From the NCBI GenBank assembly GCA_902800715.1, contig CADCFN010000011.1:62001-126000 (forward strand): 64,000 nucleotides of DNA, read 5' to 3'. Every line of letters starts with the position of its first letter. Position 1 is the first letter of the stretch. The translations under genes were made by a program, and so were the position numbers. Positions 18,614 through 27,579 of this stretch are shown piece after piece. The DNA is from an uncultured Bacteroidales bacterium. GTDB taxonomy: Bacteria; Bacteroidota; Bacteroidia; Bacteroidales; Muribaculaceae. The notes under the pieces are model-generated. The model saw only the letters and a list, made by a program, of their open reading frames with translations, ran no database searches and was not told where the DNA came from.

Positions 18614-19303
18614 TTACTCGGCTTTCTTGTCACAGTTGCAGTCGATGATCTTCCAAATGAAGGCAGCCAAAGCGCCACCTACCAGCGGGCCAACGATGAA
18701 AATCCACAAGTTAGCGAGCGCAGTGCCACCCTGGAATATGGCAGGAGCAATGGAGCGAGCGGGATTCACCGAGGTGCCGGTGTAGCGGATGCATACCAGG
18801 TGAACGAGAACCAGCGACAAACCGATGGCGAGACCAGCAAAGTTGTTGGTTGCACCATTGGTCTTGGCTGTAGCACCCAGCACAACAAGTACAAACACGC
18901 AGGTGAAGATAATCTCGGCCAACAAGCCGCCAATCATCGACACACCCTCCTGCAAGTCATTGGCACCAGTGCCTTCCATGCCCATCACGTTGGAAGTGAG
19001 CAAGTAAAGCAGTGCCGAGCCAATGAACGCACCGATGATTTGGAAAATGATGTACATGCCACAATCCTTAGCGCTCATGCGACCACTCAGGAACACACCC
19101 AGCGTGATGGCGGGGTTGATGTGGCAACCGCTGATACCACCGATGGTGTAAGCCATGGCAACAACAGCAAGACCAAAAGCGAATGCGGTGCCGACAACGG
19201 CAGGAATGTTAGTAATCGGATTACAACCCAGACTGACAGCAACGCCACAGCCCATGAGAACAAGCACCATAGTGCCCACCATTTCTGCTAAATACTTCTT
19301 CAT
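18614..19303 (-). CDS. aqpZ: Aquaporin (MIP family)
   Basis: A 229-residue channel with six membrane helices and both NPA boxes: GCHINPAITLG (first half-helix) and GTSVNPARSIAPAIF (second). The Arg after the second NPA is the selectivity-filter arginine, and His rather than Gly or Asp at nearby filter positions favours a water channel (AqpZ type) over a glycerol facilitator. The C terminus ends in a short Cys/Lys tail. The gene diverges from the Ugd-like gene with back-to-back promoters and ends in a strong terminator. Function in osmotic adjustment is inferred from the family. Confidence 0.93.
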   Translation of the reverse strand: MKKYLAEMVGTMVLVLMGCGVAVSLGCNPITNIPAVVGTAFAFGLAVVAMAYTIGGISGCHINPAITLGVFLSGRMSAKDCGMYIIFQIIGAFIGSALLYLLTSNVMGMEGTGANDLQEGVSMIGGLLAEIIFTCVFVLVVLGATAKTNGATNNFAGLAIGLSLVLVHLVCIRYTGTSVNPARSIAPAIFQGGTALANLWIFIVGPLVGGALAAFIWKIIDCNCDKKAE

Positions 19304-19381
19304 AGGTTAAAAAGAGAATTATTATTTGTTAAACATGTTGATTTACAATCATTAGGATGAAAAACCTTTTTTAGCGATTGG

Positions 19382-19413
19382 CAAACTTAGCATTTTTTAA
19401 TGAAAAGCACAAG
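19382..19413 (-). promoter_or_regulatory. Promoter of aqpZ, back to back with the ugd-like gene
   Basis: On the minus strand CTTG (19410-19413) and TAAGTTTG (19382-19389) are 20 bp apart. A plus-strand TATATTTG at 19434-19441 serves the divergent gene, so both transcripts start within this about 100-bp region. Confidence 0.6.
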
Positions 19414-19475
19414 AAAAAACAATAAAAACTTACTATATTTGCAAATTAAATAGATTGACAACTAGATTCAGCCAT

Positions 19476-20792
19476 ATGAATGTATTAATAGTAGGAACAG
19501 GATATGTGGGTCTGGTGAGCGGAACTTGCTTCGCCGACCTGGGTGTGAACGTGACCTGTGTGGACCGTGACAGCCAAAAGATCAACCGCCTGGTCTATGG
19601 TGCCATTCCCATTTACGAGCCAGGATTGGACAATATGATCAACCGCAACGTCACAGACAAACGCCTCACATTCTCGAGTGACTATAAACAAGGTTTCATA
19701 GACCAGGACTATGTCTTCTGTGCCATCGATACGACCGCCAGCGAAGACGGTTCCACCGATTTGACACCCATTCTGGACATCGCCAAGGACTTCGGCGAGA
19801 GTATCACTCGTTACAGCGTGTTTGTCATCAAGTCCACAGTACCTGTAGGCACAGCACAGCATGTGACAAAAATCATTACCGAGGCGCTTGAGGCACGCGG
19901 TGCTCAGGATATCAAATTTGATGTGGCAAGCAACCCCGACTTCCTTACCGAGGGCAACGGCATCAAGGACTTCATGAAGCCTGACCGCATCGTCATCGGC
20001 ACAGAGACAGCCACAGCACGGCAAGCCATGGAACGCCTGTACCGCACCATCCTGATGCACAACAACCGCACGGTCATCTACACCGACACACGCACTGCCG
20101 AGATGATTAAATATGCCGCCACCTCGATGCTCGCCACCCGTGTGAGCTTCATGAACGAGATTGCAAACCTGTGCGAGATTGTGGGCGCCGACATCAATGT
20201 GGTGCGCCACGGTGTGGGCTCCGACAGCCGCATCGGTCCAAAATATATCTTCCCGGGCTGCGGCTACGGCGGCACACTGTTCCCTCAGGACATCAACGAC
20301 TTGATAAAAATCGGCAGCGAACACAACTTCGACATGGAGATTCTCAAGGCCGTGGAGAATGTCAACGCCCGCCAGAAACGCATCCTCTTCAAGAAACTCA
20401 ACAACCACTTCAAGGGCAACCTTGAGGGCAAGACCGTTGCCCTGTGGGGCCTGAGTTTCAAGCCCGAGACCGACGACATGACTGCTGCCCCCGCCATCGA
20501 CACCATCAACCTGCTTATGGAAGCAGGCTGTCATGTCCGCGTGTATGACCCCGTGGCCATGAATGCCACCAAGCGCCGCTGGAGCAACGTCTATTGCGGA
20601 CTCGACATGTATGATGCCGTCAAGGGTGCCGATGCTGTGCTGTTGCTCACCGAATGGCGCCAATTCCGCATTCCGGCATGGCAAACCGTCAAGAAACTGA
20701 TGAAAACGCCGCTTGTCATCGACGGACGCAATGTGTATGATGGTAACGAGCTTGAGCAACTGGGCTTTACCTATTACTGCATCGGACGATAA
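19476..20792 (+). CDS. UDP-glucose 6-dehydrogenase-like protein with altered active site
   Basis: A 438-residue protein starting MNVLIVGTGYVGLVSGTCFA (Rossmann loop) and keeping the UDP-sugar dehydrogenase layout, including FMKPDRIVIG, AEMIKYAA and ALWGLSFKPETDDM. Key positions differ from working enzymes. The nucleophile motif normally reading GGSCFPKD is GGTLFPQD (Leu268 in place of Cys). Lys212 is kept, but the Asn four residues later is Thr216. The FL(K/R)EG motif is FLTEG, and the Arg normally after TDD(I/M) is Thr. The spacing Lys212-Leu268 equals that of Lys204-Cys260 in the Streptococcus enzyme, so the alignment is secure. Asp272 is retained. It may have lost the two-step oxidation or gained a new activity. 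ATG 19476 is preferred over an upstream TTG. Confidence 0.8.
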   Translation: MNVLIVGTGYVGLVSGTCFADLGVNVTCVDRDSQKINRLVYGAIPIYEPGLDNMINRNVTDKRLTFSSDYKQGFIDQDYVFCAIDTTASEDGSTDLTPILDIAKDFGESITRYSVFVIKSTVPVGTAQHVTKIITEALEARGAQDIKFDVASNPDFLTEGNGIKDFMKPDRIVIGTETATARQAMERLYRTILMHNNRTVIYTDTRTAEMIKYAATSMLATRVSFMNEIANLCEIVGADINVVRHGVGSDSRIGPKYIFPGCGYGGTLFPQDINDLIKIGSEHNFDMEILKAVENVNARQKRILFKKLNNHFKGNLEGKTVALWGLSFKPETDDMTAAPAIDTINLLMEAGCHVRVYDPVAMNATKRRWSNVYCGLDMYDAVKGADAVLLLTEWRQFRIPAWQTVKKLMKTPLVIDGRNVYDGNELEQLGFTYYCIGR

Positions 20793-20845: not shown

Positions 20846-20860
20846 TTTGAACATTAACAG

Positions 20861-20888
20861 AAGAACCGCCTCGTGGGGCGGTTCTTTG
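20861..20888. terminator. Bidirectional terminator between ugd-like and porE-like genes
   Basis: AAGAACCGCC (20861-20870) pairs with GGCGGTTCTT (20877-20886); T-rich stretches lie on both sides. It is six bases from the stop of the convergent minus-strand gene. Confidence 0.75.
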
Positions 20889-26005: not shown

Positions 26006-26037
26006 TTTGCACTTTCCTTGGGAAAACCTTACCTTTG
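26006..26037 (+). promoter_or_regulatory. Promoter of the BspA repeat lipoprotein gene
   Basis: TTTG (26006-26009) and TACCTTTG (26030-26037) are separated by exactly 20 bp. The leader to ATG 26110 is about 65 nt. Confidence 0.7.
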
Positions 26038-26109
26038 CCATTGGGTTGTAAGCAATCCGCAACCTCGTGTAACAAGACCTGGAAAATAACAACTAAACAA
26101 TACCTCATC

Positions 26110-27579
26110 ATGAAACATCTCATCAAGACCACCATGCTGCTGTTGGCCCTGCTATTGCTGGCCATGGTATCATGCTCTGGCAATCAGAGTGTGTCAAATT
26201 CAGGCTCCAAGTTCAAGGTTAACGGCATCTACTACAATATAATCGATAGCAATGAAGTCGAAGTCACCTACAAAGGAACATCATATTCCCAGTATTCCAA
26301 TGATTACTCTGGCTCGGTGACCATCCCCGCTACCGTCACCTACCACGGCACGACCTACTCCGTCACTTCCATCGGCTACGCTGCGTTCGATTACTGCTCC
26401 AGCCTAACCAGCATCAACATACCCAACTCCGTCACATACATCAGCTCCGTTGCGTTCCGAGGCTGCTCCTGCCTGACCACCATCAACATCCCCAACTCCG
26501 TCACAAACATCAGCGACGGTGCATTCCTGGGCTGCTCCAGCCTAACCAGCATCAACATACCCAACTCCGTCACATACATCGAGAACTCGGCATTCTCTGG
26601 CTGCTCCAGCCTAGAAAACATCTCAGTTGCTAGTAATAACACAAACTACGATTCTCGCAACAACTGCAATGCCATTATCGAAACGGCAACCAATACATTA
26701 ATTGCTGGTTGCAAAAACACGACTATCCCAAACTCCGTCACTTCCATCGGCATCGGGGCGTTTGGCTGCTCCAGCCTAACCGCCATCAACATCCCCAACT
26801 CCGTCACTTCCATCGGCGGCTGGGCGTTCCAGGACTGCTCCAGCCTAGCCACCATCTCAGTAGCTAGTGATAATCCAAAGTACGATTCTCGCAACAACTG
26901 CAATGCCATTATCGAAACGGCAACCAATACATTAATTGCTGGTTGCATGAACACGGCCATCCCTAACTCCGTCACTTCCATCGGCGCCAATGCGTTCTCT
27001 GGCTGCACCAACCTAACCGCCATCAACATCCCCAACTCCGTCACTTCCATCGGCGACGATGCGTTCTCTGGCTGCTCTGGCCTGACTAACATCAACATCC
27101 CCAACTCCGTCACTTCCATCGGCGACAGGGCGTTCTATGGCTGCTCCAACCTAGCCGACATCTCGGTAGCTAGCGATAATCCAAAGTACGATTCTCGCAA
27201 TAACTGCAATGCCATTATCGAAACAGCAACCAATACATTAATTGCTGGTTGCATGAACACGACCATCCCCAACTCCGTCACTTCCATCGGCAACTGGGCG
27301 TTCTTTGGCTGCACCAGCCTGACCGCCATCAACATCCCTAACTCCGTCACAACCATCGGCGACGGTGCGTTCTCAGATTGTCCTTCTTTAAACGACATCT
27401 ATTGCTACGTAACCACTCCCCCTAGATGCGAGATCGACTGTTATATCAATTATTCCGCGACACTCCATGTGCCAGCGGCGTCATTAGCAGCATATCGTGC
27501 TGCACCCGTTTGGAAAGATTTTAAAAAAATCGTGGGGGATGCCGACGCTACCAACAGGTATCACCATCAGTCGCGATAG
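26110..27579 (+). CDS. BspA-type leucine-rich repeat lipoprotein with duplicated modules
   Basis: ATG 26110 gives a lipoprotein signal (MKHLIKTTMLLLALLLLAMV, then SC, Cys21). Of the 489 residues nearly all are LRR_5 repeats of about 23 residues with the core IPNSVTSIGxxAFxGCSxLT. Three copies of a second module, YDSRNNCNAIIETATNTLI followed by AGC, are inserted between the repeats; at DNA level two copies are identical over 66 bp. BspA proteins bind fibronectin, fibrinogen or co-aggregating bacteria in oral relatives. The protein ends shortly after FKKIVGD, with no sorting tail or dockerin; the bases just after 27550 read sensibly in another frame, so a late frameshift is possible. It is flanked by two similar terminators. 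Confidence 0.88.
   Translation: MKHLIKTTMLLLALLLLAMVSCSGNQSVSNSGSKFKVNGIYYNIIDSNEVEVTYKGTSYSQYSNDYSGSVTIPATVTYHGTTYSVTSIGYAAFDYCSSLTSINIPNSVTYISSVAFRGCSCLTTINIPNSVTNISDGAFLGCSSLTSINIPNSVTYIENSAFSGCSSLENISVASNNTNYDSRNNCNAIIETATNTLIAGCKNTTIPNSVTSIGIGAFGCSSLTAINIPNSVTSIGGWAFQDCSSLATISVASDNPKYDSRNNCNAIIETATNTLIAGCMNTAIPNSVTSIGANAFSGCTNLTAINIPNSVTSIGDDAFSGCSGLTNINIPNSVTSIGDRAFYGCSNLADISVASDNPKYDSRNNCNAIIETATNTLIAGCMNTTIPNSVTSIGNWAFFGCTSLTAINIPNSVTTIGDGAFSDCPSLNDIYCYVTTPPRCEIDCYINYSATLHVPAASLAAYRAAPVWKDFKKIVGDADATNRYHHQSR
26647..27252 (+). repeat. Three 66-bp direct repeats inside the BspA gene
   Basis: Copies at 26647-26712, 26881-26946 and 27187-27252. The first two are identical and the third differs at two bases. 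Distances of 234 and 306 bp are multiples of three, so recombination between copies would remove or add whole modules without breaking the frame. Confidence 0.95.

Follow-up and report, generated by a model that had tools for sequence, protein, structure and literature searches.

The window, by which we mean the whole stretch of 64,000 nucleotides of Muribaculaceae DNA that was analysed, contains a gene for a homologue of UDP-glucose dehydrogenase (UGDH) that lacks the catalytic Cys, here named ugdL and its product UgdL. Its frame is full length with no internal stop, and the NAD-binding, central and UDP-binding domains are all present, with Pfam PF03721, PF00984 and PF03720 above their cut-offs. 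The gene stands alone, with one divergent and one convergent neighbour (Table 1). Promoters of the Bacteroidota carry a -7 element with the consensus TAnnTTTG, and two such elements set back to back (window 19381-19442) make up the core letters shared by all 21 intergenic regions compared (20 chosen loci and the window). The hairpin that follows the gene resembles an intrinsic terminator, although three hairpin sites in the region against 1.8 expected from shuffles is weak evidence by itself.

Table 1 Features of the ugdL locus in the window, and the canonical ugd elsewhere in the same genome.
Feature	Position	Strand	Basis
Aquaporin Z-like MIP channel, divergent neighbour	18614..19303	-	PF00230; aquaporin Z as best match in NCBIfam (211 bits, below its cut-off of 256)
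Second -7-like element, for the divergent aquaporin gene; GCAAACTTA on the + strand	19381..19389	-	Intergenic alignment
Bacteroidota-type -7 promoter element of ugdL, TATATTTGC	19434..19442	+	TAnnTTTGC kept in 21/21 aligned intergenic regions
ugdL, UGDH homologue without the catalytic Cys	19476..20792	+	Translation: 438 aa and stop, ATG start
Codon of Cys82	19719..19721		Clade alignment
Codon GAC, Asp155 at the family-invariant Glu of NPEF (Glu141 in S. pyogenes UGDH)	19938..19940	+	Translation
Codon ACC, Thr216 replacing an Asn invariant in the family (Asn208 in S. pyogenes UGDH)	20121..20123	+	Translation
Codon CTG, Leu268 replacing the catalytic Cys	20277..20279	+	Translation, motif GGTLFPQD
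Codon of Cys374	20595..20597		Clade alignment
Intrinsic-terminator-like hairpin after ugdL	20860..20887	+	12 pairs
Large ORF with BspA-like leucine-rich repeats	26035..27579		By reading
Canonical ugd, motif GGSCFPKD	C7:132618..133937		Separate gene in the window genome

By descent, UgdL is a nucleotide-sugar dehydrogenase (UDPG/MGDP dehydrogenase), as the three Pfam domains and TIGR03026 all lie above curated cut-offs; judged by the defining catalytic residue, its sequence places it outside UDP-glucose 6-dehydrogenase. An annotation pipeline would probably take it for an ordinary enzyme, since the TIGR03026 score of the window protein (406 bits) is far above the cut-off of 189.8, and automatic annotation as "nucleotide sugar dehydrogenase" by that model may thus wrongly predict UDP-glucuronate synthesis in at least 80 genomes. 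The equivalog model for TuaD, NF047673, has a curated cut-off of 700, and both UgdL (471 bits) and the canonical enzyme of the same genome (550 bits) fall below it.

A preliminary description of this gene had reported a full-length, clean frame in which GGTLFPQD places Leu268 at the catalytic Cys, with Thr216, FLTEG and TDDMT as further replacements and with Lys212 and Asp272 kept. The translation bears out every one of these residues. It also reveals three changes missing from that list: the Glu of NPEF has become Asp155, the Gly of VGTP Asp85 and the Lys of FPKD Gln271. Equivalences to S. pyogenes numbering were assigned by hand from motifs and spacing, and Glu161 of human UGDH was likewise mapped by hand to the place of Asp155.

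We then compared 169 distinct sequences, 85 with Leu and 84 with Cys at the catalytic place, leaving out identical duplicates and those shorter than 420 aa. Leu268, Asp155 and Thr216 are found in all 85 Leu sequences, whereas the 72 near canonical relatives all have Cys, Glu and Asn. The earlier statement that the differences are not a misalignment is right. The Thr of FLTEG is equally a feature of the clade (85/85, with Lys in 72/72 near relatives), and Asp replaces the conserved Gly at position 85 in 82 of the 85. The Thr after TDDM is not clade-wide, as Arg is retained there in 29 of the Leu sequences. Leu268 is spelled by six different Leu codons across the 84 loci besides the window; together with 85 distinct sequences from many assemblies, this rules out a sequencing error or a mutation of one strain.

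Much of the remaining site has been retained. K212, D272, R252, K329, G265 and E159 (in S. pyogenes numbering Lys204, Asp264, Arg244, Lys320, Gly257 and Glu145, respectively) are present in all 85 Leu sequences, as is the Leu211 of S. pyogenes numbering; Tyr10 and Thr121 are each retained in 84. Eighteen residues, the catalytic Cys among them, are given as invariant in 229 nucleotide-sugar dehydrogenases in the accessible part of PMC4794789. Fifteen of these 18 are found in the window UgdL, and the other three, Cys260, Glu141 and Asn208, are replaced in 85/85. A few more of the invariant residues are replaced in some Leu sequences (Gly12 in 4/85, Thr83 in 11/85, Ser117 in 10/85 and Thr118 in 1/85).

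The Leu form is widespread within the genus of the window genome. Our sample comprised 93 genomes of the genus, 61 from a first search and 32 more from a scan of the family, and 80 of them (53 and 27, respectively) carry the Leu form as a full-length frame. In one further genome (G013) it is split over two contigs, the first of which ends just after GGTLFPQ, and another (G037) has a Cys form, GGTCFPKD, at locus L057. No copy was found in the remaining 11, six of them searched at 1e-30 and five in a listing of matches below 1e-165, which broken copies could escape; these 11 genomes are 67-93% complete, and four of the six (G002, G004, G039 and G059) gave canonical-like matches only. The genus includes Candidatus Sodaliphilus limicaballi, as judged from locus L109, whose protein is identical to that of L059 from G004.

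Outside the genus, only Cys forms were read among the matches listed in the family and order scans. The scan of the family (397 genomes, 84 of them in the genus; matches below 1e-165) matched 44 genomes of other genera at no more than 62% identity. All 44 have the Cys and the Glu, and the Asn is present wherever the motif was shown, that is, at every locus other than L251. The scan of the order (393 genomes; matches below 1e-176) gave a single match outside the family, with GGSCFPKD; in both scans more distant members beyond these limits were left unread. Finally, 84,980 species, each represented by a single genome, were scanned and the best 80 loci were retained. Among these, 65 were read at the site, 17 with Leu and 48 with Cys, and the remaining 15, at 43-48% identity, were unread. 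Twelve of the 17 Leu loci are protein-identical to genus genomes and the other five share 64% identity or more with the window protein. We found no description of a natural Cys-less UGDH clade in the PMC full-text literature, which most subscription papers lie outside.

Phylogenetic analysis placed the Leu forms in one genus-wide group. This UgdL group comprises Leu and Cys members on a common stem branch that is long and fully supported, also when active-site columns are masked. Its Cys members are a sister pair, L057 (4667-5974, - strand; genome G037) and L089 (2406-3710, + strand), which join the Leu clade with a support of 100. Close relatives reading GGSCFPKD at this place would have refuted the preliminary description; the nearest Cys forms do not refute it, as they read GGTCFPKD and already have the Asp and the Thr. 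Like the Leu clade, they carry Asp155, Thr216, Tyr257, Thr267, Cys82 and Cys374, and unlike the window UgdL they keep the Cys and Lys271. In their GXGXXG motif the second Gly is replaced by Ser. The frame of L089, as read, is interrupted by one stop, and the pair may represent an odd, differently altered enzyme.

Since this Cys-keeping pair already has Asp155 and Thr216, the simplest account from the sequences is that Glu and Asn changed first and Cys afterwards, and the pair may show an intermediate, with the first two changes present and the Cys still there. The history of the Cys itself may be read in several ways. The Leu sequences formed one clade in the first tree (SH-aLRT 89); once 12 active-site columns had been masked, the Cys pair moved beside the FPKD subclade (81/50), and a single Leu clade was not rejected (p-AU 0.472). 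A single loss, two separate losses and a regained Cys would all be compatible with the sequences and cannot be told apart.

The sister pair also bears on the idea that the nucleophile has merely moved. Cys82 and Cys374 are candidates to stand in for the lost residue, as both are found in 85/85 Leu sequences and in only 6/72 and 0/72 near canonical relatives, respectively. However, both are equally present in the pair that still has its catalytic Cys.

We searched for a second, canonical ugd in the window genome (3.3 Mb in 27 contigs, 89% complete) and found one. It is 55% identical to UgdL over the full length, and is the only further full-length family member above the Pfam cut-off in that genome. 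Immediately upstream of it is a gene whose reading suggests a polysaccharide-export tyrosine kinase, whereas the window ugdL is outside any such locus. Among the 53 genomes in which the first search had found a full-length Leu form, a TuaD-type Cys enzyme accompanies UgdL in 26 and is absent from 27. Of these 27, 19 have a Ugd of the GYGGYCLPKD type, assigned by reading the motif in seven and by 73-90% identity to the query in the rest, and eight have neither. One or the other type is thus found alongside UgdL in 45 of the 53 genomes, the window genome included. The eight with the Leu form and without a detected Cys-type UGDH are G015, G027, G029, G044, G046, G048, G049 and G053 (72-99% complete), as judged with two protein queries in all eight and a Pfam domain scan in G015 only. 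In G015, which is 99% complete, the other Pfam matches were one GGHCIAVD-type enzyme and one match below cut-off.

These eight genomes indicate that UgdL is not in general a subunit or regulator of a Cys-type UGDH. The functional reading in the preliminary description thus holds in part: a changed function stands, while a regulatory subunit that depends on a canonical partner fits poorly as a general role and is disfavoured.

Selection on the two genes was compared by dN/dS in 11 genomes that carry both, using all 55 pairs. Within the window group (nine genomes, 36 pairs), dN was lower in the Leu gene in 36/36 pairs and median identity was 92%, versus 86% for the canonical gene. The median dN/dS there was 0.048 for the Leu gene and 0.047 for the canonical one, the latter with dS saturated in many pairs and several of the saturated values counted as zero ratios. 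In the 19 pairs that involve G012 or G042, the Leu gene evolved faster than the canonical one in every case, with a dN/dS of 0.10-0.23. UgdL is thus constrained, strongly so among close relatives, and is more divergent between subclades. None of 80 full-length Leu copies has an internal stop, and these intact frames together with a dN/dS of about 0.05 in the window group rule out decay into a pseudogene. The earlier view that the gene has a new or changed function rather than being in decay is therefore well supported, by the genus-wide clade, the low dN/dS, the intact frames and the conserved promoter element.

The gene neighbourhood differs between subclades. The aquaporin Z-like gene is the immediate divergent neighbour at 51 of the 55 GGTLFPQD loci fetched, and glpA, the gene for anaerobic glycerol-3-phosphate dehydrogenase, is directly divergent in 14 of 22 GGTLFPKD loci, four of the 22 having too little upstream sequence; glpB lies behind glpA, for example at L048, L049 and L203. 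Neither gene is divergent at the six GGTLFSQD loci, at the GGNLFPQD locus (within 400 bases), at the two loci of the sister pair or at those 59 canonical loci whose upstream sequence was long enough. At some loci (L036, L047, L083 and L085) an ORF on the same strand begins about 10-60 bases after ugdL, and it too differs between subclades. A comparison of neighbours across the fetched loci yielded no partner gene linked to ugdL in the whole clade, and we read the divergent neighbours as reflecting inherited order, not function.

What UgdL does can be approached through the published mechanism of UGDH. In the accessible part of PMC3184952, the first oxidation of UDP-glucose is described as reversible and as started by water activated by Asp280, with Lys220 stabilising charge in later steps and Cys276 bearing the thiohemiacetal and the thioester; a thiohemiacetal was held in an E161Q structure. 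The accessible part of PMC4794789 assigns Asn208, together with Lys204, to the first oxidation, and gives Glu141 a mainly structural role. It further lists Lys204, Asp264, Arg244, Lys320, Gly257 and Glu145 as contacts of the substrate or the catalytic water and Leu211 as a residue of the UDP-glucose group. Tyr10 is said to catalyse the final hydrolysis of the thioester. With Cys, Glu and Asn missing, the covalent route would be cut, and the residues make it very probable that UgdL has lost the ordinary form of that route.

Our preferred reading, to which we give a probability of roughly 0.37 on the strength of sequence comparison, is that UgdL is a paralogue derived from a Bacteroidales-type UGDH, arisen at the base of the window's genus, that would carry out at most one hydride transfer at C6. 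The normal site of UgdL would still bind a UDP-hexose, with UDP-glucose the likeliest, and the machinery of Lys, Asp and water would support at most one reversible hydride transfer between UDP-glucose and UDP-6-aldehydo-glucose. There would be no passage through the thiohemiacetal and thioester to UDP-glucuronate, and the aldehyde would be handed on, reduced back or held during another change. In favour of such a two-electron step, the Lys, the Asp and the listed sugar contacts are invariant in the clade, and the first oxidation is the reversible one with Asp-activated water (PMC3184952, accessible part). Against it, the residues of the first and second steps are not cleanly divided in the sequences, since Asn208 is lost while the Lys220 place and Tyr10 are kept. 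Moreover, loss of the Cys does not by itself appear to forbid the second oxidation, because a Cys-to-Ala enzyme, though failing to complete the reaction from UDP-glucose, oxidises added aldehyde (PMC3184952, accessible part).

The same mutant result lends something to another explanation, in which UgdL still makes UDP-glucuronate by direct, non-covalent oxidation of the hydrated aldehyde. The retention of Tyr10 would suit this, as would the eight genomes without another detected UDP-glucose dehydrogenase, one of which (G029, 78% complete) encodes a sugar epimerase that shares 64% identity with one beside a canonical ugd. However, the missing gene of G029 may sit in an unassembled part, Glu and Asn have been lost along with Cys, and 45 of 53 genomes hold a TuaD-type or GYGGYCLPKD-type enzyme beside UgdL. 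We consider this the least likely of the functional readings.

The NAD site separates the subclades and weighs on the preferred reading directly. In the 22 GGTLFPKD sequences, G7, G9, G12, D30, T86 and S120 are kept in 22/22 and R336 in 20/22, as expected of an NAD enzyme without covalent catalysis. Of the 57 FPQD sequences, which include the window and one GGNLFPQD form, 48 have lost Arg336 and five Thr86, and the six FSQD sequences have all lost both; Arg336 is thus lost in 54 of the 63. The Arg336 place forms a salt bridge to the NAD pyrophosphate, according to the accessible part of PMC4794789. Gly7, Gly9 and Asp30 of the NAD fold are nevertheless present in 85/85 Leu sequences. Since the NAD contacts are retained in FPKD and drift in FPQD, one branch has lost the nucleophile but kept an intact NAD site, and in the window's branch the NAD site has loosened. 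Judged from the residues, this loosening would be the main evidence against a redox role for the window protein itself.

It favours instead a pseudoenzyme, which would bind UDP-glucose with no chemistry, so as to sense or store nucleotide sugars or to act as a partner protein. The loss of three invariant catalytic-site residues beside invariant nucleotide-sugar contacts points the same way, as does a gene that in the window stands alone with its own promoter element. On the other hand, the near-universal retention of Lys212, Asp272 and Thr121 would be unexpected if C6 chemistry had gone, and the conserved Gly7, Gly9 and Asp30 also speak against a pseudoenzyme. A role as partner of canonical UGDH would not be general either, given the 27 of 53 genomes without the TuaD type, of which eight also lack the GYGGYCLPKD type. 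We regard the pseudoenzyme as a serious contender, and rank the two-electron step narrowly ahead of it.

Weakened NAD contacts could also suit a cofactor that is not exchanged. UgdL would then be an isomerase, in which tightly bound NAD transiently oxidises C6 or another carbon, a neighbouring centre inverts and the hydride returns, with no net oxidation. Such chemistry has a precedent in GDP-mannose 3,5-epimerase, and retention of the Lys, the Asp and the sugar site with removal of the covalent step would agree with it. However, we know of no precedent within the nucleotide-sugar dehydrogenase family, and we hold this reading to be improbable, if slightly less so than non-covalent synthesis of UDP-glucuronate. 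From the sequences, the one-step oxidation, the epimerase-like reaction and the pseudoenzyme cannot be told apart.

The catalytic Cys carries the four-electron chemistry of the family, and here a natural clade has dropped it under purifying selection. The UgdL clade thus offers a ready system to sort the active-site residues of the first oxidation from those of the second. Returning to the preferred two-electron reading, we put forward a fuller and more tentative version of it, suggested by the residues: UgdL may be an evolved two-electron UDP-hexose 6-oxidoreductase (or bound-NAD epimerase), a four-electron UGDH minus its Glu, Asn and Cys, that acts genus-wide in a possibly housekeeping nucleotide-sugar 6-aldehyde pathway of Bacteroidales.

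Among known systems, UgdL is closest to the TuaD-type UGDH, represented by the canonical enzyme of its own genome (L001) and by PDB 3gg2. The latter is its best PDB match (2e-152), has Cys at the site in the alignment, and carries in its PDB entry no closer name than "sugar dehydrogenase", with assignment to the UDP-glucose/GDP-mannose dehydrogenase family. UgdL and the TuaD type share three domains, length, the Lys, the Asp and the nucleotide-sugar contacts, and UgdL differs in having Leu for Cys, Asp for Glu, Thr for Asn, Thr for Lys in FL-EG and, at position 85, Asp for Gly. A second likeness is to the laboratory Cys-to-Ala and Cys-to-Ser mutants of UGDH described in the accessible part of PMC3184952, which, like UgdL, are without the catalytic Cys and otherwise intact. 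Those mutants, however, are single engineered changes, whereas UgdL occurs in nature, combines the loss of Cys with Glu-to-Asp and Asn-to-Thr, and has been kept by selection.
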